The position numbers and the translations under genes were made by a program. Below the pieces are notes generated by a model, which saw only the letters and a program-made list of their open reading frames with translations, had not been told where the DNA came from and ran no database searches. DNA of 27,499 nt, from the IMG/VR virus record IMGVR_UViG_3300009419_000075, positions 1 to 27,499 of that record; one strand, given 5' to 3'. This stretch comes from a virus. Numbering within the stretch: the first letter of the stretch is position 1; each line of letters opens with the position of its first letter. Of the stretch, positions 17,212 to 27,344 are shown in pieces.

Positions 17212-20200
17212 ATGAAGAAGACGGTGAATCTCTACCTACGAGGAATCACCAGCGCAGTAGTGGGGCGGCCATCGCCCCCTAGTGAAAACGATAGTGACTG
17301 GGTGAATAACAACGTGCAGCTCAACAAGTACGATCTCACCAGCTTCACAATCGGCGGACACGCTCGCGCATGGATTTGTGGCTTCGGTGCCATCTACTCT
17401 AACGGCGCTTGGGATGACGTTGGCTCACTGACGTCGGTCTCTGGTTACGGTTGGATGGGTGACTGGTCGAACAAACAGTTCCTCAAGTTGGTCGGTGCGG
17501 TACGTCAGCTCAACGTCATGCTCTCTTGGTTGCTCGAACGTAAGCACGGCAATGAATGGTGCATCGTCAGTGACGGCCACCACTCTATGACAGACCGCAG
17601 CAACCTCGGACACTGGGGCCAGCTCGTTCACTACATCGAGAAGCGCAATCCCGGAACGCAGAAGTACACCATGCAACAGCTCATGGCTGGTGCCAATGGC
17701 TTCTCGTACGACCCGAAATTCTTCCGGCAGTACGGCGGCGTTATTCTGTTGCTGTCTTCGCCTTCGCGCTCCATGCCGCAGGATTTCGCTAACGTGATCG
17801 CCGCAGCGTTGAAGGAAGGGCAATCGCTGATCGTGTTGCAGTGGGATGCGGGTGCCGGACACCTGAACTTCGAGAACATCTTCTATCCGAACTTCGGTAT
17901 CAACATCAACGGCGCAAGTCGCATCGTGGCAACCGCGCAGGCGTGTGCTGCGTACCGCGCGTTCTACGGCAACCACGTTATCTGGAGTGCTGCGGGTCTG
18001 CTCAATGACCCACAACAAGATGCGCTGTTGAAACGTATCGGTGAATTGCACTTTGAAAAAGCAACGCGCACCAGTGAGAACTACTGGTTCCAGCGCGTGC
18101 CGAATCAAGCAGACCAGCCGATTCTCAACGGACAGCCGGGAGAGTGGTGGCCGTTCTGGCGGGGCGAAGTTGACCTGCCCGCCGACCAATACAACCACGA
18201 CGACGTTATCGAAGTGAAGTTCAATTGCTGTATGGCGATGGGTGATGTTTACAAGCGCGATGGCATGAACTTCTACTCACAACCCTACAAGCCTGATGAT
18301 GCGGCACCGCACGACTGGCAGACGGGCTTGGATCTGGGCACTCACGTCATTACGTGGAACGAAGATCATCCGGTGGACTGGTCGAAGGTGAAACTGTTCT
18401 CGCGAGTTGTTGGTTTGGGTGCCTACTCGGCTAACGGAAATAATCCGATGCTCGCGGGTTTCAGTTACGTGAACGGCGCGTACTACCGCGACACGCGCGG
18501 TCTAAACGTCTACGTGATCTCGAAAGCTACCATGCAACTTGTGGATCGTCGCATCTTCGACATTCACGGGTCTAGCGGTCAGGGTTCCGTTGACGGCCAG
18601 CAAGCCGCAGGTGAGTGCGCGGCCTACCTCAACCAATGGGGTGGCGACGTCTGGATCATGGTGACGATGTTCGATGAGTGCAGCTACAACCGTTTGGTTG
18701 GAGGTCTACCTGCCGCACTGTATCGCCTCGGCGCAAGTCGCTCGGTGTTCGAATCGCCAAAGTTCGCGTACCGTGCAGCGTACCACTTGCTCGGGTCTCC
18801 CGGTCTGGCCGAAGGTCAGGCGATTAGCGAAATGTATCGCGGTGAGAAATCATCGAGTGCCGATGCGTTCTTCGACGTCTGCTTCGAATATGATTACGAT
18901 GGATGGCCGCAGCAAATTGGTATCCCGTTCCTTGAGCAGCGCAGCACGATTTATTCGCGCGTTGTCGGATTCCAAGTGCGAGGTGCGAGCGGATTCCCTG
19001 GGCACTATCCTCCGGGGCGCAGTGTGAACCGTGGTTACTCTGTTGTGAGCGGCGTACGTTACTTCGATTCGCGCGGCTTCAACGTCTACGTTATCGACAA
19101 GGATACGCACAAGGTAAAAGACCGTCGTGTGTTTGACCTGCACGGTAACGGCGTCGAGGGTGGTAACGGCGTGCAGGCAGCAGTTGACTGCGCGGCATTC
19201 CTTAACAGCTTGCCCGATGATTCGTGCTACGTAATGGTTACGATGTGGGACGAGTGCAGTATCAACCGCCTGCAAGGTGGGCTGCCTCAAGCCATGTACC
19301 GAATCGGTGCGAGTTCCGAAGCGTACGAGTCGAAATACTTCCGTTACCGTTCAGCGTACCACGTCCTTGGCATCCCAGGGATTAAGGAAGGCAACGCGAT
19401 TTCCGAACTCTATCGCGGCTACAAGTCTGGCGACCCCGATGCGTATTTCGAAGTCGGATTCAACTTCAACGAGTTCAACGAGATTTACTGCACAGGAACC
19501 GAGAAGGAGTTTGTGTTTGCGATGACTGGCGGCTTGAACCACATGCAGGCCGGGACATTCGCTTACATGCGCACGCTGCAAGACATTGACGGCGGCATGA
19601 CTGTCGGACGTGACTACAACGTGAAGCTGCGTGATGTGCGCTTCCAAAAGCTGCCGATGTGGGACGAACAGGAATCGATCATCAAGTTCGAAAACCCTTG
19701 CGTCAACATCATGAACTATCCGGCAATCTCCATCAACGACGTGTCGCTGACAGAAGGCAACAGCGGTCAGCAATGGGTGACGTTCACTGTTACCGCGAGC
19801 GAGCCGATCATGGGACGTCCGTTGACTGTGCGTGCCCGCACCAAAGATGGCTCTGCGCGTGCGCTCTCCACCGAGACCAGCGTGAAGAACATCGGTAGCG
19901 ATGAGCGCGGTATTCCGGTGCTGCAATATCTTGACTACGACAACACTCGCGTCGTTCTCGATGGTGGCTTCCCGAAATACTACAACAACGCTTTCGACGT
20001 TGACCGCGATAACAACATCAAGAAGTTCGTGAAGAACAGTTTGGACTGGTTGAACCGTGGACGTAACGCGAAGGTGTTGATCACTGGTGACGTTTATCCG
20101 GGTGCGCCTTCCCCGACGACCAACTATTCCATCAAGGGAAGTGCGCCTTCTGACTTCGGTGTCGCGCTCCCCAACTACATCCGGTCGCTCGGGTATCAAG

Positions 20201-21468
20201 TTGATATTCTCGGCTGGACTGAAATGGACGGTGGTGCTCCATCTGCGTTGGTGTTCGACAAGTATTCCGTGGTGTTGTTATTCAGTTCTGCGTACGCGCG
20301 TCTGGATAGTCCGCCGCTCGGCGTGTCGTTCTGCCGTTCACTGGAAAACTCGGTGCGTCGCGGTACTGGCTTGATGCTGATCACTGACCACTTGGATGAA
20401 GCGAACAACATGGGCTTTGCGTCGAGCGCTAACCAATTGGCGCACCGCTTCTATGCGCACTTCTCCGGAAACTTCGACCGTCAGTACATCGACATTGATC
20501 AGGTTCGTGCAACTCAAGGCGAACATCCTTTGATTCGTGGCATGACTGGCAAGATGAATGCGTTCGGTAGTGAGTCGCGCGTTGACAGTAACGGCACTGT
20601 CGGCGACCCGCAGGACTACGTGCCCGTGGACACGGAGCTGACAATCGACGTCGGTCAAACGCAAACAACCGTGAGCGTGTTAGTGAACGGCGATACGTTG
20701 GTGGAAGGTGAAGAGTATTTCACTATGCTGCTGTATGACTTGTCGCGCGGTGAGTTCACCAAAGACCGTGGCCGTTGCGTTATCTATGATGACGATGGTA
20801 CGCCGTTTGGTTCGCAGGCGAGTTCGGGCGGTCAAGGTGTTGAGTGGCGGCGTCAGCTTTACCGCAACACCACGGGCGTGTTCATCGTCAACTCCGAGCA
20901 CTACACGGTGCCTGACAGATTTGACGTGTTCCATGATACGTGGTGGGTCGGTGGGCAACCGCGCCCGCAACCTGGAGTGAAACCTCCTTACGATTATCCG
21001 GGTGGGCCGATTCACGGTTTCCTTCCGGCGCAAGGTGGTCAGTGGCACTTGTATTTGCCGCACTACGCAGAACTCGATTACACGACGTTCTACGATATGC
21101 GAATGCAAGGTACTGGTTCCGGTACAGCGTGGGACTACAACACTTCGGAAGACACAGTGAAGCCGGTGTGGGGTTCGTACGGCATGAGCGCGCAGCAAGT
21201 TCGCATTCACGACACGCGAACAAGCGGACGCAGCGGCCCGTTCCGAATCAAGTTCACTTATAACGGTGGCGGCCTGTTCATCCTGTCGCGTGTAGGTCAA
21301 GAGTATTTGCGTGCCAGTGGTTCCGGTGTTTACTACATGGATCACGATCCGACGCGAGACTTCATGTATATCGAAGTCAAGGTCGATGATGGCGCGTACT
21401 ACAGCGGACAGCACAGCGGAGGCGGCCAGAACGGCGGCATGGGCACGTATTCTTTGGAGGTAATCTAA
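17212..21468 (+). CDS. Giant mosaic fibre protein: amidotransferase-like domains, tandem GG/ILEI domains, Calx-beta
   Basis: The product is 1418 residues. A first alpha/beta domain (about 49-283; YGGVILLLSSPSRSMPQDFA, then GQSLIVLQWDAG) resembles the class I amidotransferase/ThuA fold without an obvious catalytic triad. Two GG/ILEI (FAM3-like) domains follow, in units of 185 residues starting at Ser397 and Ser582; each has GxNVYVI, DRRxFDxHG, MVTMxDEC, GGLP, RLGAS/RIGAS and a HxLGxPG segment. The GG domain is known from T4 long tail fibre protein gp35 and from animal FAM3 and POMGNT1. A Calx-beta strand set starts at about 836 (ISINDVSLTEGNSG) and finishes at about 1131-1195 (GDTLVEGEEYF, YDDDG), with a second amidotransferase-like domain between. 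A 220-residue beta-rich end completes it. AAGGAG precedes the ATG. This is probably a distal fibre or hinge protein. Confidence 0.8.
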   Translation: MKKTVNLYLRGITSAVVGRPSPPSENDSDWVNNNVQLNKYDLTSFTIGGHARAWICGFGAIYSNGAWDDVGSLTSVSGYGWMGDWSNKQFLKLVGAVRQLNVMLSWLLERKHGNEWCIVSDGHHSMTDRSNLGHWGQLVHYIEKRNPGTQKYTMQQLMAGANGFSYDPKFFRQYGGVILLLSSPSRSMPQDFANVIAAALKEGQSLIVLQWDAGAGHLNFENIFYPNFGININGASRIVATAQACAAYRAFYGNHVIWSAAGLLNDPQQDALLKRIGELHFEKATRTSENYWFQRVPNQADQPILNGQPGEWWPFWRGEVDLPADQYNHDDVIEVKFNCCMAMGDVYKRDGMNFYSQPYKPDDAAPHDWQTGLDLGTHVITWNEDHPVDWSKVKLFSRVVGLGAYSANGNNPMLAGFSYVNGAYYRDTRGLNVYVISKATMQLVDRRIFDIHGSSGQGSVDGQQAAGECAAYLNQWGGDVWIMVTMFDECSYNRLVGGLPAALYRLGASRSVFESPKFAYRAAYHLLGSPGLAEGQAISEMYRGEKSSSADAFFDVCFEYDYDGWPQQIGIPFLEQRSTIYSRVVGFQVRGASGFPGHYPPGRSVNRGYSVVSGVRYFDSRGFNVYVIDKDTHKVKDRRVFDLHGNGVEGGNGVQAAVDCAAFLNSLPDDSCYVMVTMWDECSINRLQGGLPQAMYRIGASSEAYESKYFRYRSAYHVLGIPGIKEGNAISELYRGYKSGDPDAYFEVGFNFNEFNEIYCTGTEKEFVFAMTGGLNHMQAGTFAYMRTLQDIDGGMTVGRDYNVKLRDVRFQKLPMWDEQESIIKFENPCVNIMNYPAISINDVSLTEGNSGQQWVTFTVTASEPIMGRPLTVRARTKDGSARALSTETSVKNIGSDERGIPVLQYLDYDNTRVVLDGGFPKYYNNAFDVDRDNNIKKFVKNSLDWLNRGRNAKVLITGDVYPGAPSPTTNYSIKGSAPSDFGVALPNYIRSLGYQVDILGWTEMDGGAPSALVFDKYSVVLLFSSAYARLDSPPLGVSFCRSLENSVRRGTGLMLITDHLDEANNMGFASSANQLAHRFYAHFSGNFDRQYIDIDQVRATQGEHPLIRGMTGKMNAFGSESRVDSNGTVGDPQDYVPVDTELTIDVGQTQTTVSVLVNGDTLVEGEEYFTMLLYDLSRGEFTKDRGRCVIYDDDGTPFGSQASSGGQGVEWRRQLYRNTTGVFIVNSEHYTVPDRFDVFHDTWWVGGQPRPQPGVKPPYDYPGGPIHGFLPAQGGQWHLYLPHYAELDYTTFYDMRMQGTGSGTAWDYNTSEDTVKPVWGSYGMSAQQVRIHDTRTSGRSGPFRIKFTYNGGGLFILSRVGQEYLRASGSGVYYMDHDPTRDFMYIEVKVDDGAYYSGQHSGGGQNGGMGTYSLEVI
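18400..19482 (+). repeat. Tandem duplication coding for two GG/ILEI domains
   Basis: Two in-frame units of about 185 codons begin at 18400 and 18955, each opening with SRVVG and containing the full GG/ILEI domain. By eye roughly half the residues are identical, whereas the DNA has diverged widely, so the duplication is old and held by selection on protein sequence rather than being a recent copy. Confidence 0.85.
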
Positions 21469-21689: not shown

Positions 21690-21702
21690 TGAGGTGTGCA
21701 AC

Positions 21703-22524
21703 ATGTTGCAACAGGTAAAACCTGCCATGATTGATGCGCGTGGAGTGGACGATGGTTCCGCTCTACAAGCTGACGGTGAGCAGGCGAAGTTTAAAAAGCC
21801 TGCACCTAACGATGACTCCCCGCCCCGCGAGCAGCTATCGTTTGATGCGACAACGGGCGTGCTAACTATCCGTTACACTGACGGGCAGACAGCCACGGTC
21901 TCGGGATTTCCGACAACTGCGCAAATCTCGAAAGGGAGAAAAGGCGACCCAGGTCGGCGTGGAGAAGATGGGCGACCTGGAAACGACGGACGTAACGGAC
22001 GCGATGGACTTCCCGGCTGTCCGGGACGGAAAGGCGACCGTGGACGTGTTGGCCCCACTGGCCCGACGGGTGCTGTTGGCCCGACTGGTATCACTGGCCC
22101 CACTGGCCCCGTAGGCCCCACTGGCCCAAAGGGCGCGACGGGTGCTGATGCCCCGACGTCCGTCTACAACGTCGTCAACTTCAAGGATCCCGATACAGAG
22201 ATCGCATATCCTGATGCCTTCATTGGCTCGGAGTTCGATCCTGCCACGCGACGCATTCGTAACTTCGGTCGAGTGAAGGCGCGGCAACTTCGGGATACTA
22301 TCAACGTGGTGTTTGAACGTCAGTTCGTGAACCGCTGCGTTTCGCTCCAACTCACATTCGTTGATGCCGACTGCAATCAATCGAAGAAGTATGCGCTCTA
22401 CACGGAAGACGGACAGGCGTTGACGTCTGGCCCTGAAAACTTGATGCTGGGCGGCTTCGTGATCAAAGTCAGTACACCGAATGACCGAGCTTGGGATTTC
22501 TTCTTTGAAGCTATAGGTGACTAA
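21703..22524 (+). CDS. Collagen-like fibre protein with a 120-residue C-terminal head
   Basis: The frame opens at a GTG at 21694, but ATG 21703 is chosen because GAGGTG at 21691-21696 lies 6 bases before it and the product then starts MLQQVKP, like MLQRVGL and MLEKVNI in the paralogues. The 273-residue protein has the common N-terminal module (FDATTGVLTIRYTDGQTATV then SGFPTTAQI), then Gly-X-Y triplets at about 82-150, rich in GRDG and GPTG. A C-terminal head of about 120 residues follows (RDTINVVFERQFVNRCVSLQ to the end), unrelated by eye to the other heads. It lies 7.5 kb from its three paralogues, with two large fibre genes and a small gene between. Confidence 0.87.
   Translation: MLQQVKPAMIDARGVDDGSALQADGEQAKFKKPAPNDDSPPREQLSFDATTGVLTIRYTDGQTATVSGFPTTAQISKGRKGDPGRRGEDGRPGNDGRNGRDGLPGCPGRKGDRGRVGPTGPTGAVGPTGITGPTGPVGPTGPKGATGADAPTSVYNVVNFKDPDTEIAYPDAFIGSEFDPATRRIRNFGRVKARQLRDTINVVFERQFVNRCVSLQLTFVDADCNQSKKYALYTEDGQALTSGPENLMLGGFVIKVSTPNDRAWDFFFEAIGD
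22051..22140 (+). repeat. Gly-Pro-Thr coding repeat in the fourth collagen-like gene
   Basis: In-frame 9-base units close to GGCCCCACT recur with point variants, coding for Gly-Pro-Thr, Gly-Pro-Val and Gly-Ile-Thr triplets. It uses a partly different codon set (CCC-ACT) from the run at 14388, so recent conversion between the two is not obvious. Confidence 0.8.
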
Positions 22525-22526
22525 CA

Positions 22527-23309
22527 ATGAGCGCTCAAGGGTACGCGAACGCTCTCTACAATCTTGCGTTGGAACAGGGGTTGGCTTCCGGCCACCCCTG
22601 CGTCTACCAAGTGCGAGAGGGAACCGACAAATACATTGTGGTATCCAACGAAGAGCCGACTTCTCTTGTGTTGCCATTAAATGTGCTCTGGGTTCATTCT
22701 GACGGCGGCAATATCCTAATTTGGCGTCGGACGTCTAAAACTCCGAGCGCACCTTGGCAGCATAGCTGGGTGCCGGAGACTGACTACAATTCAATTTTCA
22801 ACACCGAGCCTGTGTGGGCTCCCGAAGATGCACCTATCCCTGTGATCATTTCACAGAAGGGCGGCCAGTTGAATGGCCCGCTCTATCCGGTAGTGAATAG
22901 CACGTATGAGGATACGGAATCCGCGCCTCTTGGCTTTATCCGCAACATCATCAACGGAGTTCGTAACTCGCTGATGACGATGTATCAGAACATGAACAAG
23001 CGTGTTCTGTACGATGACGAACGTATTCGTGCGCTGTACTCATCGTTGGATTCCTTGCAAGTGCGCGTGAATGAGATCGACTATTCGAAGTCGCAATCTT
23101 ATCCATATGTTCAAGAGGACGTGTCGGACGTGTGGGTTATTGAACACGGATTCGACAAGAGTACACACTTGTTGCAGGTGTTTGTCACGGACGAAAGCGG
23201 GGAGATCGTATGTCCTGCCAAAACGATGCACAACACCGACGGCACTACGGTGCTGCGCTTCTCGGAGCTTTGCTCTGGGCAAGCAGCAGTTTTTGCACTC
23301 AAGCTGTAA
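22527..23309 (+). CDS. Fibre-like structural protein with C-terminal hairpin domain
   Basis: This is a 260-residue protein with ATG two bases after the collagen-like gene and AGGTGA as ribosome-binding site. The first 120 residues are beta-rich (TDKYIVVSNEEPTSLVLPLN, NILIWRRTSKTPSAPWQHSW). About 120-195 is helical with coiled-coil character (NGVRNSLMTMYQNMNKRVLY, ERIRALYSSLDSLQVRVNEI). The last 60 residues (DVWVIEHGFDKSTHLLQVFV then GTTVLRFSE) follow the HN/HG-x-L strand-hairpin pattern also seen at the end of the 565-residue protein downstream, a fold frequent in phage fibre and baseplate proteins. Its last 100 bases also encode, in another frame, the signal peptide of the next gene. Confidence 0.75.
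   Translation: MSAQGYANALYNLALEQGLASGHPCVYQVREGTDKYIVVSNEEPTSLVLPLNVLWVHSDGGNILIWRRTSKTPSAPWQHSWVPETDYNSIFNTEPVWAPEDAPIPVIISQKGGQLNGPLYPVVNSTYEDTESAPLGFIRNIINGVRNSLMTMYQNMNKRVLYDDERIRALYSSLDSLQVRVNEIDYSKSQSYPYVQEDVSDVWVIEHGFDKSTHLLQVFVTDESGEIVCPAKTMHNTDGTTVLRFSELCSGQAAVFALKL
23199..23204 (+). promoter_or_regulatory. Ribosome-binding site inside the preceding gene that decides an overlapping start
   Basis: GGGGAG ends 5 bases before ATG 23210. The only other nearby in-frame ATG (23324) has no Shine-Dalgarno in front of it. This makes the out-of-frame overlapping start, and therefore the signal peptide, the better-supported reading. Confidence 0.75.
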
Positions 23310-24109
23310 CTGCAAAAACTGCAATGGTAGTCAAAGCGGAAGTTATCTCTCCGTTCGTGGCAAGCGGGTATGTAAGGCAGTTGACCGACATGGGATTCAC
23401 TCACGTCGTAACCATCTACCTTCCCGGTGCCACGAACGATTCGCGTTGGCTATCCGAACAGTACGAAACGATGATACTTGCGGCTTACGAACGTTGGCAG
23501 CCTGACGTCGTTCTTTCGACTGAGATCAATTTCGATTACTTCCCAACGGCACGCGATAAACTTCGAGACAAACTCCGTAGCATCAAGCCTATTGGTTTGC
23601 TCGATCTCGCGACCAGCTCGTTTACGCACCTCTACAAATTCATGCAAGAGACCGGAGTATCAGACAAGAAGTTCTATCTCCTGTACCGTGCGGAGTTCGG
23701 GCAGCTCTACGATGACAGAGCGCGCGAGGCTGGATTCAAAGACCTTGTGCCAATCACGGTTGATACTCTCGCGGATTTGCGCACGACGCTTTCCACTATC
23801 CCGCAAAGCGATGACGTTGCGATCATCAACGCTGTTACTTACGTCCGCGACGTTGAGTTCAATCGTCCGGTACTGGCGCAGCAAGTCGCTTCCATTATTG
23901 CGCGCGCTGGTGTGCTTGACGTAAGCGTCATTGATTACGCACCCGGTGCGATTACGGTGTTGCATACCGACCCGAGCATTCGTTTGGAATCCGGTGAAGC
24001 GACGCTGGGCAAACCGCTGATTCATGTCAAAACAAAGCGCCTCGACAAGCTCGGACTCAAACAAGTATATCTTGTGGGGTTCGACAAGCTAGACGGCATC
24101 ACTCAATAA
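23210..24109 (+). CDS. Exported protein of periplasmic-binding-protein flavour, signal peptide overprinted on the upstream gene
   Basis: The 299-residue product starts with a Sec-type signal peptide: a basic region with Arg10-Arg11, a hydrophobic core at about 14-25 (GAALLGALLWASSS), and a likely cleavage after Ala35 (VTA then KTA). A Cys at 29 is not in a good lipobox. The mature part alternates strands and helices (YVRQLTDMGFTHVVTIYLPG; IGLLDLATSSFTHLYKFMQE; FYLLYRAEFGQLYDDRAREA; ADLRTTLSTIPQSDDVAIIN), which resembles the ABC substrate-binding (ABC_sub_bind) or type I periplasmic-binding fold. That match is by pattern only and weak. Its first 100 bases lie in another frame of the preceding gene. 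Two membrane proteins follow at once. It likely acts in the host periplasm or envelope. Confidence 0.75.
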   Translation: MSCQNDAQHRRHYGAALLGALLWASSSFCTQAVTAKTAMVVKAEVISPFVASGYVRQLTDMGFTHVVTIYLPGATNDSRWLSEQYETMILAAYERWQPDVVLSTEINFDYFPTARDKLRDKLRSIKPIGLLDLATSSFTHLYKFMQETGVSDKKFYLLYRAEFGQLYDDRAREAGFKDLVPITVDTLADLRTTLSTIPQSDDVAIINAVTYVRDVEFNRPVLAQQVASIIARAGVLDVSVIDYAPGAITVLHTDPSIRLESGEATLGKPLIHVKTKRLDKLGLKQVYLVGFDKLDGITQ

Positions 24110-24122
24110 TTTAGGACATACG

Positions 24123-24416
24123 ATGGACGAGAAACGCCTCATGTATTTGCGGAGGGCGGTGATCGGCTGCGCTGTCGGAATCTTGATTGCCGTTCTAGTG
24201 ACTGCCGCACCTTCCCCGCAGGTGCAGACAAAGCTGAGTGTCGAAGAGCAAGTCTTCTGCGTGTCGGCAATCTGTATCGACGACCCTCAACGGGGCAAGC
24301 AGTGCATCGACTTTACTCCGCGCATTAGCAAGCTCATTAGCATTCCTGATGTTGAAAGTAAGTCTGTGCGCATTGCTCTTGAGGCTACTGGCAGAGTATG
24401 TAAGGAGCCTCGCTGA
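24123..24416 (+). CDS. Small membrane-anchored or secreted Cys-rich protein
   Basis: This is a 97-residue protein. A basic N-terminus (KRLMYLRR) precedes one hydrophobic segment at about 12-29 (AVIGCAVGILIAVLVTAA), so it is either an N-in/C-out anchored protein or a cleaved signal peptide near Ala29. The remaining 68 residues would be periplasmic and carry four cysteines (46, 51, 61, 93), consistent with two disulfides. No family is recognised. AGGA about 6 bases upstream is the ribosome-binding site. The stop overlaps the next start (TGATG). The context with an exported protein and another membrane protein suggests an envelope complex. Topology is that of a small lysis-accessory protein too, but no lipobox or spanin feature is seen. 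Confidence 0.75.
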   Translation: MDEKRLMYLRRAVIGCAVGILIAVLVTAAPSPQVQTKLSVEEQVFCVSAICIDDPQRGKQCIDFTPRISKLISIPDVESKSVRIALEATGRVCKEPR

Positions 24417-24895
24417 TGGGTGAGTTGATCTCGAAGCTGTTATCTACCAACTTCGCAACTGTGATTTCGGTTATCGTTGCGGCGTTGGCTCTTGCGTTCA
24501 TCTACTGGATTGCGATTCCCGCCATCCGTAGAACAATCGAGCTTGAGCGTGAACTTGAATTGGCACGCGCTCAACTCGCACAAAAAGAAACTGAGCCGGA
24601 AATAAATCGGGTTGCTGAAATCCTTAGCGGCATTTCGCTGCTGGGGGATACAATGGCAATGGTTAAAGACACCTTGATGCAAGTCGAGGGGCGTCTTGCC
24701 GCAAGCGAACAGGCTCGAACGCGCGGCGAAGAGAAGAACCAAGAATTCTATGACCACCTCAATGAGGTGCGTCAGATCATGGGGACACTTAGCCAGCGCA
24801 TGATGAGCTTGTCAACCGCCGTCAACCAGATCGCAAACTCGCGGGCTCGCGGTACTAGCGAAGCTGGTGATAAGGTGCGAGGGCTCAGATCGTGA
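24416..24895 (+). CDS. Membrane-anchored coiled-coil protein
   Basis: This is a 159-residue protein. One transmembrane helix lies at about 15-36 (VISVIVAALALAFIYWIAIP), followed at once by Arg38-Arg39, so the positive-inside rule puts the C-terminal part in the cytoplasm. Residues about 40-65 (IELERELELARAQLAQKETE) and about 70-150 form long amphipathic, coiled-coil-like helices with few aromatics. The overlap TGATG with the previous gene and GTGA with the next gene indicates tight coupling. Comparison with spanins fails on topology; a cytoplasmic coiled coil could instead oligomerise on the inner face of the membrane. Function is unknown. Confidence 0.75.
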   Translation: MGELISKLLSTNFATVISVIVAALALAFIYWIAIPAIRRTIELERELELARAQLAQKETEPEINRVAEILSGISLLGDTMAMVKDTLMQVEGRLAASEQARTRGEEKNQEFYDHLNEVRQIMGTLSQRMMSLSTAVNQIANSRARGTSEAGDKVRGLRS

Positions 24896-25635
24896 ACATC
24901 AAATACCTACGGAACAACATCGGGTTTCGTCGTAATAGTGCGATGCAATATGCAGAGTTCTACAGCGCGAAAACCTTCATGTTAGGGGAGATACTCGACG
25001 GCGAACATTCGGACTTGTTCTCCCCGTCAGCACGGGAGATACTGTTGCAGTATCTCTCTGCCGCTGATGTTCTTCTCCGCAATATCGAGAACACGTTTAT
25101 CGCGTGTTCCTCCGGATGCGTTACGCCCGAAGCAGCAAGTCGCTGTGAGCGCTACGCTAAACAATTCGTTATGCACGTACACAAGGTTATTGACGAGAAC
25201 CCTGACGACTTCGATCCGGTAATCGCAAAGCCTTGGCTTATGGCCTCCCGTGAATGTGCTCCGATTGTTTTAGACGTGGCGCGCCAATACATCGACGGCG
25301 ACATTTCGACGGCGTTCGCTTCTGTGATGCGATTTGCAACACGCTACTTGAATCACATCATGTTCGCTCTTCATGAGCTTATGTGTTTGGTTCACAAGGA
25401 GCGACCAATTCTCTACTTGAGCGTGATTGATATTCACGTACAGGTGAAGAAATCGTTCAGCCTGCCAAGCGTGCGACTCGAAGCATATAGACGTGCTGGG
25501 TTGCTCGACGACCATGCTGAATTAAAGGTTCTGCGCGAAGTCGAGGATGATTACCTCAAAGCCGACGAACGCAGATGGGTGGCCTACCGAACAATCCTTG
25601 AATCGGTATCCATCTTCAACATCAAACTCTCTTAG
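24892..25635 (+). CDS. Unrecognised helical protein (247 residues)
   Basis: It starts at GTG 24892, overlapping the previous stop (GTGA), so translation probably continues from upstream. The sequence is almost entirely alpha-helical (AREILLQYLSAADVLLRNIE, ASVMRFATRYLNHIMFALHE, EVEDDYLKADERRWVAYRTI) without a membrane span. It has five cysteines, including GCVTPEAASRC near residue 80. No family is recognised. It completes a four-gene chain starting at the exported protein at 23210. The gene ends 11 bases before the highly codon-optimised fibre gene, and the RBS of that gene begins within its stop codon. Confidence 0.7.
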   Translation: MNIKYLRNNIGFRRNSAMQYAEFYSAKTFMLGEILDGEHSDLFSPSAREILLQYLSAADVLLRNIENTFIACSSGCVTPEAASRCERYAKQFVMHVHKVIDENPDDFDPVIAKPWLMASRECAPIVLDVARQYIDGDISTAFASVMRFATRYLNHIMFALHELMCLVHKERPILYLSVIDIHVQVKKSFSLPSVRLEAYRRAGLLDDHAELKVLREVEDDYLKADERRWVAYRTILESVSIFNIKLS

Positions 25636-25646
25636 GAGTAGACTTC

Positions 25647-27344
25647 ATGAAAGTTCATGGTAACGTAGACCTGCGCGGTCAAAGCCAGATCCTCAACTTC
25701 CGTCCGGAAATTCTGGCGGCTGACCCCGCAGTTGAAGCGCTGTTTGAAGGCCGTGGCTGGTGGAACTCCACTGCCAAGGCGCTGAAATTCTACAACGGCA
25801 CCGAAGTCGTAACTCTGGCCATCGGCGGCGATCTGTCCGATTACATCCGCGCTGATGGCACCATCGCCATGACCGCTGATCTGCTGCTGTCCAGCGCTGA
25901 CCAATCTGGCTCCGACGCCAAGGCCGCGATCTCCAAAGGCTACGCACAACAACTGCTGACTGCCAAGCAAGACACCGTTACTGGTGCTGCTTCCACCATC
26001 GTTGCCGCTGACCTGACCGCCAACAAAGCTGTCGTGTCTGACGCGCAAGGTAAAGTGATCGAAGGCGGCGCTACCGCTGCTGAAATCGCCCACCTGTCCG
26101 GTGTCACTGCTCCGCTGCAAGGCCAGATCGACGGCAAGCAAGCTGCGCTGGGTTACACCCCGCTGAACAAAGCTGGTGACAACCTCGAAGGTGACGTCAA
26201 CGCTGGCGGTCATAAGATCACTGGTCTGGGTGCTCCGGTTGCTCCGACCGATGCCGCTCGTCAAATCGACATTGACAACGCGCTGTCCGGTCTGAACTGG
26301 CAAGAAGACGTGAAGGGTGTTCAGGTTGACGACACTATGGGCCCGGGCGTTGCGGTTAAAGGTGATCGCTACATCCTGACCAACGTCGCTGCTCTGCACA
26401 CCGACTTCGGCACCATCGCTGGCGTTGACAACGGTGACATTGTTGAACACGACGGCACCGAGTTCGTTGTTGTGTTCGACGTGAGCGCCGAGGGTGCGAA
26501 AGCCAACGGTGCGCTGGCATGGGACAACGGCTCCAAATCCTACAAGCGTCTGCTTGAAGGTGCGTGGGGTTCCTTCGGCGGCCTGAGCGACATTAACGCT
26601 GGTGCTGGTCTGGAACAAGTCGGCAATACCATCAACGTCCGCATGGGTGCTGGTATCGTTGAGCTGCCGGAAGATGGCGTGGGTATCGATCTGCGTGCTG
26701 AATCTGGTCTGGCTCTGCTGGATGTTGACGGCGTTGAGTCCACCGCTGCTGATGCCAAGCTGTCCGTCAAACTCGACGGCGTGACTCTGGCGAAAACTGC
26801 CGCTGGTCTGAAAGTTGCTGCCAAAGGTATCGGTGCCGCTGAACTGGCTGCCGCTGCTCTGGGTAACGGTCTGGTCGGTGGTGACGGTTCTGTTGTCACT
26901 GTCAAAGCCAAGAACGCTGGCGGTATCGTTGTCGATGCAGACGGTGTGTCTGTTGACAACGCCAAGCTGGGTGAGACCTTCCTCGCCAAAACTGGCGACA
27001 CCGCTGCCGATCTGAAAGTCACCGCAGCTCCGGTTGCCGAGACCGACGTCGCACGTCTGAAAGAAGTCACCGATGCCAAAGCCGCAATGCAAACTGTGGT
27101 CGATGGCGTCAAGGCTACCTTCGACGCTTCCGAAGTCGTGTACGATGGCCTCGCCACCGTGCAGACCACTCACACCATCGCGCACAACCTCAACAACCGC
27201 TACCCGCAGGTTGAAGTCGTTGATGCCAACGGAGACACCGTTCTGGCCGACGTGACCCGCGTCGATGCGAACAACGTCTCCGTTACCGTGGCTCCGGCCA
27301 CTGGTGTGGTTGTCATCGTTCGCGGTAACAAGAAGCCCGTCTAA
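25647..27344 (+). CDS. Abundant fibre-like virion protein
   Basis: This is a 565-residue protein with classic phage fibre-shaft motifs: YIRADGTIAMTADLLL near 68-83, LGYTPLNKAGDNLEGDVNAG near 170, HKITGLGAPVAPTDAARQID near 190, and a domain with LNWQEDVKGVQVDD and GDRYIL near 212-250. The end (HTIAHNLNNRYPQVEVVDAN to VVVIVRG) is the HNL strand-hairpin domain of many phage structural proteins. Codon choice is extreme compared with the neighbouring genes: Leu almost always CTG, Ala and Gly mostly GCT/GGT, Lys AAA/AAG, few rare codons, which indicates very high expression. AGGAG at 25634-25638 precedes the ATG and a strong terminator follows. It could be a tail fibre, a head fibre or another surface protein. 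Confidence 0.82.
   Translation: MKVHGNVDLRGQSQILNFRPEILAADPAVEALFEGRGWWNSTAKALKFYNGTEVVTLAIGGDLSDYIRADGTIAMTADLLLSSADQSGSDAKAAISKGYAQQLLTAKQDTVTGAASTIVAADLTANKAVVSDAQGKVIEGGATAAEIAHLSGVTAPLQGQIDGKQAALGYTPLNKAGDNLEGDVNAGGHKITGLGAPVAPTDAARQIDIDNALSGLNWQEDVKGVQVDDTMGPGVAVKGDRYILTNVAALHTDFGTIAGVDNGDIVEHDGTEFVVVFDVSAEGAKANGALAWDNGSKSYKRLLEGAWGSFGGLSDINAGAGLEQVGNTINVRMGAGIVELPEDGVGIDLRAESGLALLDVDGVESTAADAKLSVKLDGVTLAKTAAGLKVAAKGIGAAELAAAALGNGLVGGDGSVVTVKAKNAGGIVVDADGVSVDNAKLGETFLAKTGDTAADLKVTAAPVAETDVARLKEVTDAKAAMQTVVDGVKATFDASEVVYDGLATVQTTHTIAHNLNNRYPQVEVVDANGDTVLADVTRVDANNVSVTVAPATGVVVIVRGNKKPV

Follow-up and report, generated by a model that had tools for sequence, protein, structure and literature searches.

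A conserved four-gene envelope cassette of large phages and its possible role in lysis timing

Introduction

In the lysis inhibition system of phage T4, the periplasmic RI protein and the cytoplasmic RIII protein both act on the holin T (PMC12642591, PMC6832632). This is the closest working analogue of the locus analysed here, a cassette of four adjacent genes (A to D) in a 27,499-nt virus fragment (IMG/VR record IMGVR_UViG_3300009419_000075, positions 1-27,499; the window in what follows). The two resemble each other in having proteins on the periplasmic as well as the cytoplasmic face of the inner membrane, among them a small periplasmic sensor, putative in the cassette, and a cytoplasmic partner. 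They differ in that the main domain of T is periplasmic whereas that of C is cytoplasmic, and in that T4 uses no protein resembling a periplasmic binding protein (PBP) in this role, whereas the cassette has A. None of the PHROG, Pfam or PDB matches of A-D was to RI, RIII or T. We propose that A-D form an envelope-spanning regulatory complex, the output of which would most likely be lysis timing, and to this reading we assign a probability of about 40%.

Other described proteins resemble single members of the cassette. Protein A shares with type I PBPs (e.g. 3d02, 3lkv) its predicted fold and its export, and differs from them in having no sequence match, no transporter genes, a shortened first lobe in the Lu11 branch and no clearly conserved cleft. 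The short N-terminus, single transmembrane helix and cytoplasmic coiled coil of C recall the YhcB/ZapG and DUF948 proteins, from which it is set apart by a match below cutoff, by its linkage to D and by a conserved -LR near the C-terminus. With its N-terminal helix and coil, C is also superficially similar to the inner-membrane spanin of the Rz/Rz1 type, but its orientation is reversed, with the coil in the cytoplasm, the cassette has no lipoprotein, and most of the genomes encode a spanin-like lipoprotein at another place. C and D match the families PHROG_31730 ('membrane protein', E 1e-10) and PHROG_19088 ('ABC transporter', E 8e-42), and the name of the latter is not borne out by the model of D.

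Results

Contiguous A-B-C-D genes were present in 26 of the 35 IMG/VR loci found with D, and in the loci examined A, where present, was always accompanied by B, C and D. The same order was observed in phages PaBG, Lu11, HRDY3, NCTB, Alexandra, Y3, Yoloswag, AD1, JA11 and fHe-Yen9-02 (with the loci above, the main group), and in PaBG, Lu11, NCTB and the jumbo phages of Erwinia, Dickeya and Yersinia it is retained even where identity falls to about 20%. The nearest relatives of the window are two IMG/VR contigs, L014 (230 kb) and L015 (130 kb), with a D identity of 57%. Phages Lu11, PaBG, NCTB, Dickeya AD1/JA, Erwinia Y3, Yoloswag and Alexandra make up the Lupandier group (PMC7412058), and the window belongs with them.

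The other nine of the 35 loci found with D lack A and B. In a third lineage (nine and further loci) D is directly followed by a transmembrane, coiled-coil protein ending in -LR; after this pair comes a gene whose conserved product, some 211 aa long, weakly matches 2-oxoglutarate-Fe(II) oxygenases (contig L064, 6479-7114, and its equivalents elsewhere). Compared across the main group and the third lineage, the D families match at 99.1%. Among complete Vibrio phage genomes, TDDLMA keeps C-D, and in phiKT1024 D is preceded by a protein of the same size as C; A and B are missing from both. Since A and B are absent from these two other lineages, the cassette can be read as a core C-D pair with a periplasmic extension. 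An earlier note on this DNA, made from its letters alone, had treated the four genes as one unit; this stands for the PaBG, Lu11 and Alexandra group, where A-D are kept together, and not for the two lineages that hold only D and a C-like protein.

A further arrangement was seen in a pair of database genomes. Alcaligenes phage Afa-NA1 (PV550095.1, L006; 5824-6711) and Salmonella phage Sen-NF (PV359490.1, L007) are 99.4-99.6% identical in the flanking DNA, and Afa-NA1 is without a 1.3-kb stretch of Sen-NF, so that the signal peptide of A runs in frame into a D without its N-terminus. If real, Afa-NA1 represents a natural loss of A-C. The Sen-NF genes in the 1.3-kb stretch abut with no gap, which suggests that these 'complete genomes' may be artefacts, and both PV359490 and PV550095 were left out as independent evidence.

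The presence of homologues for every gene, together with low ratios of nonsynonymous to synonymous substitution rates (dN/dS), indicates that A-D are real genes and not chance frames. The ratio was 0.03-0.17 for all four genes in every pair with a finite dS but one, the exception being B in the diverged pair L037/L044 (0.42); in close pairs B gave 0.03-0.16. Purifying selection acts on all four genes. In most pairs dN was highest for A, and D was among the lowest. Plausible Shine-Dalgarno sequences of the GGAG/AGGA type precede all four starts (ATG at 24416 for C, GTG at 24892 for D), the end of A lies 13 nt from B, and the overlaps of 1 nt between B and C (TGATG) and of 4 nt between C and D (GTGA) make the genes look translationally coupled. 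The four coupled open reading frames that the earlier note had placed here are therefore borne out by overlaps, Shine-Dalgarno sequences, homologues and dN/dS alike.

In gene A, a Shine-Dalgarno GGGGAG stands ahead of the ATG, and the N-termini, inspected by eye in all branches, carry a predicted signal peptide at about residues 1-35 (RRHYGAALLGALLWASSSF...AVTA in the window, RYARSVFLACAIWLCVG...AVAG in L014). The first 100 nt of A are shared, in a different frame, with the fibre-type gene upstream and code for the greater part of the signal peptide, a layout also seen in Alexandra, Y3, Yoloswag, JA11 and the Yersinia relatives. The signal peptide is not an artefact of this overlap, because it is also present in PaBG, Lu11, HRDY3 and NCTB, where it overlaps the upstream gene hardly or not at all. 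The annotated starts of A in Alexandra-type phages, Y3, Yoloswag and JA11 sit downstream, and the signal peptide is thereby lost. An AlphaFold2 model from 18 sequences (predicted local distance difference test score, pLDDT, 82.7) shows alternating alpha and beta elements, and in a Foldseek search against the PDB it matched LacI-type cores and periplasmic binding proteins at probability 1.00, with E values from 4e-6. There were 121 PDB matches at E<=0.001, the best TM-score among the matches listed being 0.52; that it reaches only about 0.5 is possibly due to a different orientation of the lobes. We thus assign to A a predicted two-lobe type I PBP fold. A profile search of A against PDB sequences gave no credible match, including none to PBPs, and no cognate transporter or receptor kinase was found near A, its neighbours being B-D and fibre genes.

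Protein B has one N-terminal transmembrane segment (residues 12-30 approximately) with a basic N-flank and a fifth cysteine within it. The four periplasmic cysteines, at positions 46, 51, 61 and 93, are invariant in an alignment of ten diverse members, and the best PDB profile match reached only E 0.37. An unannotated homologous frame was found in Lu11, HRDY3 and Y3 (L010 6205-6489, L011 6228-6515, L003 6199-6483).

The transmembrane segment of C spans about residues 16-34. Its N-flank is nearly without basic residues, and an invariant proline at the exit is followed by basic residues and then by the coiled coil, a distribution that argues for an N-out/C-in topology. The C-flank of the C-like protein of the third lineage is strongly basic, and the C-in topology is clearest there. 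The C-terminus is -LR, or has it nearby, in most members across lineages. Membership of C in ZapG/YhcB was rejected (Pfam ZapG-like, E 2e-4, 21.7 bits against a cutoff of 33.5; NCBIfam ZapG, E 0.04, 14 against 150 bits), as was membership in DUF948, whose sequence match falls below the family cutoff; Pfam scans of the coiled-coil members yielded many weak hits to coil families, mostly unrelated ones, and these hits were discarded.

The AlphaFold2 model of D (pLDDT 93) consists of five long helices and a small alpha/beta C-terminal part. Foldseek found no PDB match to it below E 0.4, a profile search against PDB sequences gave no credible match, the D protein of the window has no Pfam match, and in BFVD there were only four matches at E<=0.001. 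A pattern scan of GTDB bacterial genomes found no relatives, the homologues found being those of phages only. The protein has no transmembrane segment, save for one borderline stretch in L014. The ABC transporter label was rejected, since the five-helix bundle has no nucleotide-binding or ATPase fold, no polytopic membrane domain and no PDB match. An NNIxFR motif occupies residues 8-13 and is near-invariant despite the low model confidence of the first ten residues; it looks like a docking motif.

For the proteins, these data agree with the description given in the earlier note of an exported A with a possible periplasmic-binding fold (signal peptide in relatives, AlphaFold2 and Foldseek), an anchored B of 97 residues with four periplasmic cysteines (alignment and topology), a C of 159 residues with one transmembrane helix and a cytoplasmic coiled coil (flanking charges) and a helical cytoplasmic D (a soluble bundle modelled at high confidence). 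Its statement that no known system is recognisable also stands, A-D being absent from the known-system libraries; a known anti-phage defence system was rejected, with weak PADLOC hits only (E at least 0.017). Likewise, A-D had no match that would identify one of them as a known virion component, holin or spanin.

A holin-like protein with several transmembrane segments is encoded downstream of D, on the same strand, in 12 of 12 main-group genomes checked, and a spanin-like lipoprotein in 11 of them; 'holin-like' is based on hydrophobic segments in the sequence and on position, with no family match. The distance from D to this set is 1.5 kb in Lu11 and HRDY3, 3.6 kb in NCTB, 9-11 kb in L014 and L015, 11 kb in JA11, 12 kb in the Yersinia phages, 14 kb in L031, 16-18 kb in Yoloswag, Y3 and Alexandra, and 24 kb in PaBG. 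In Lu11 and HRDY3, D stands 1.5-2.3 kb upstream of the holin-like protein, the lipoprotein and an M15-type endolysin. In the third lineage, beyond the oxygenase-like gene and where the contig reaches that far, there is a convergent M23 endolysin 1.4-3.5 kb from D, with a spanin-like pair of Rz-like protein and lipoprotein just past it (1.4-4.8 kb for the whole set), and in the Vibrio phages D is followed at about 3.5 kb by an endolysin (GH19) or chitinase gene. Over Lu11/HRDY3, NCTB, the Vibrio phages and the third lineage, the distance between D and lysis genes is 1.4-3.7 kb. The genes of the cassette travel with lysis genes in three lineages. A standard holin or spanin was rejected as an identity for A-D, because C has the opposite topology and the genomes carry their own lysis-like set elsewhere.

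This lysis-like set (holin-like protein, a coiled-coil protein with N-terminal transmembrane segment, lipoprotein and, in some, an M15 endolysin) is itself conserved in the Lupandier-group jumbo phages and mostly unannotated there (for example, L052 43163-44345 and L011 9052-10562).

The features of the locus are collected in Table 1. The location between fibre genes given in the earlier note is right in substance, with collagen-like and fibre-type genes upstream and a virion structural gene downstream, and both flanking neighbours recur beside the cassette in Erwinia, Dickeya, Yersinia and PaBG relatives. Further upstream, positions 21694-22524 code for a collagen-repeat fibre protein (Pfam Collagen, E 4e-14) and 17212-21468 for a protein of 1418 aa with ILEI-like and Calx-beta domains, in whose place the relatives have large proteins annotated 'ILEI domain containing'.

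Table 1. The four cassette genes and their flanking neighbours in the window
Feature	Position	Strand	Product
Gene A	23210..24109	+	299 aa, exported, type I periplasmic-binding-protein-like (predicted)
Gene B	24123..24416	+	97 aa, N-in membrane anchor and periplasmic domain of ~65 residues, four invariant Cys
Gene C	24416..24895	+	159 aa, N-out/C-in single transmembrane segment, cytoplasmic coiled coil
Gene D	24892..25635	+	247 aa, cytoplasmic five-helix bundle with small alpha/beta C-terminal part
Upstream neighbour, outside cassette	22527..23309	+	Fibre-type protein, phrog_24148, labelled 'HNH endonuclease'
Downstream neighbour, outside cassette	25647..27344	+	Virion structural protein, phrog_16122, E 6e-133

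Discussion

In this work, sequence and prediction establish the compartments of the four proteins, the coupling and conservation of their genes and their separateness from holin and spanin. A physical A-B-C-D complex in the envelope is probable. By sequence or prediction, A resides in the periplasm, B is a membrane anchor whose cysteine-rich domain faces the same compartment, C crosses the membrane with its coiled coil in the cytoplasm, and D is cytoplasmic. We propose that C tethers D to the inner membrane and that, as this pair is kept alone in other phage lineages, C-D may form the core effector. A and B would then act as a periplasmic sensing arm for an envelope event, for example superinfection or the status of the envelope and peptidoglycan, and the signal would pass from A to B, to C and to D. 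As output, lysis by the separately encoded holin, endolysin and spanin set would be delayed or gated in the manner of T4 lysis inhibition. A dN that is highest for A and among the lowest for D is expected if A faces the variable side, and the holin-like gene in every genome checked, with the lipoprotein in all but one, makes a regulator, and not a duplicate holin, plausible. Among the devices that the earlier note had considered (sensor, superinfection exclusion, lysis control), the synteny with lysis genes favours lysis control.

Several observations weigh against this proposal. The lysis set lies 9-24 kb from D in several relatives and, since late genes cluster, the closeness of D to lysis genes is weaker evidence than it appears. 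No sequence match to a known antiholin was found among A-D. Between the main group and the third lineage the match of the C families is weak, at 82.7%, a value that coiled coils can reach by chance. In A, the loops on the cleft side are only slightly more conserved than those opposite (2.09 bits, and 1.88 for the latter; permutation p 0.088). Part of the first lobe is also missing from the Lu11 branch, so that a conserved small-molecule pocket is not supported and, for A, interaction with another protein is no less likely than the binding of a small molecule.

One rival explanation is superinfection exclusion or receptor masking, in which periplasmic A, anchored through B-D, binds a surface receptor or an incoming tail component from inside, so that other phages are kept out and progeny are not lost to debris. 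Receptor-blocking genes often adjoin receptor-binding genes, as with llp of phage T5, and the cassette lies between fibre genes in the main group; the high dN of A points the same way. Receptor masking, however, needs no cytoplasmic effector, and the C-D core of the two other lineages is not next to fibre genes and has no exported partner, and we consider this explanation rather unlikely. The layout of C, with its N-terminal transmembrane segment and cytoplasmic coil, and its weak ZapG-like matches are what would be expected if C mimicked a YhcB/ZapG- or DUF948-like protein and, with D, redirected division or wall synthesis of the host, A and B serving to relay or localise. Those scores are under the cutoffs and typical of coiled-coil noise, and other C members match mostly unrelated coil families, which makes such a takeover of the host envelope improbable.

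The late position within a block of virion genes raises the question of whether C-D are a membrane-tethered factor that keeps part of the assembly of heads, tails or fibres at the inner membrane, with A and B as periplasmic accessories. There is a precedent in T4, where prohead assembly begins at the membrane. We regard this as quite improbable, because A and B act outside the cytoplasm, whereas virion assembly is cytoplasmic, and because the C-D pair of the third lineage adjoins an exonuclease and a ligase-like gene, and not structural genes, in most loci. In addition, none of the 14 PaBG proteins in Table 1 of PMC7412058 is numbered gp230-233, although the numbering may differ and the list is short; the same paper mentions further virion-associated proteins of PaBG that are not listed in its main text. 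Least probable of all is the uptake or sensing of a nutrient or other ligand, with A binding a small molecule as true PBPs do and C-D relaying or transporting. Cyanophages do encode PstS, and both the predicted fold of A and the PHROG label of D could be read in this sense, but neither an ATPase nor a permease is present, D being a helical bundle without PDB match and C having a single transmembrane segment, and the cleft of A is not clearly conserved.

The cassette is real and conserved, and it has no description in the literature searched; the passages searched in papers on jumbo phages, among them PaBG and those of Dickeya, do not discuss A-D. It is a tentative, somewhat doubtful suggestion that it stands for an undescribed class, in which a phage PBP-fold sensor and a cysteine-rich anchor would signal through a single-span coiled-coil protein to an effector of novel fold that decides on lysis, with the effector pair common to three lineages of large phages. 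If our proposal of lysis timing is true, several groups of large phages have a common membrane-tethered regulator to which one group has added a binding-protein-like periplasmic sensor, and PaBG, Lu11 and Alexandra carry a device for lysis control or superinfection response that has no sequence kinship to that of T4. Genes that were hypothetical or misannotated ('ABC transporter', the 'HNH endonuclease' neighbours, a truncated A, an unannotated B) would become a defined four-gene unit. The PHROG-derived labels 'HNH endonuclease' for the fibre-type protein (PHROG_24148) and 'ABC transporter' for D (PHROG_19088) look wrong, and both pervade the annotation of the relatives.

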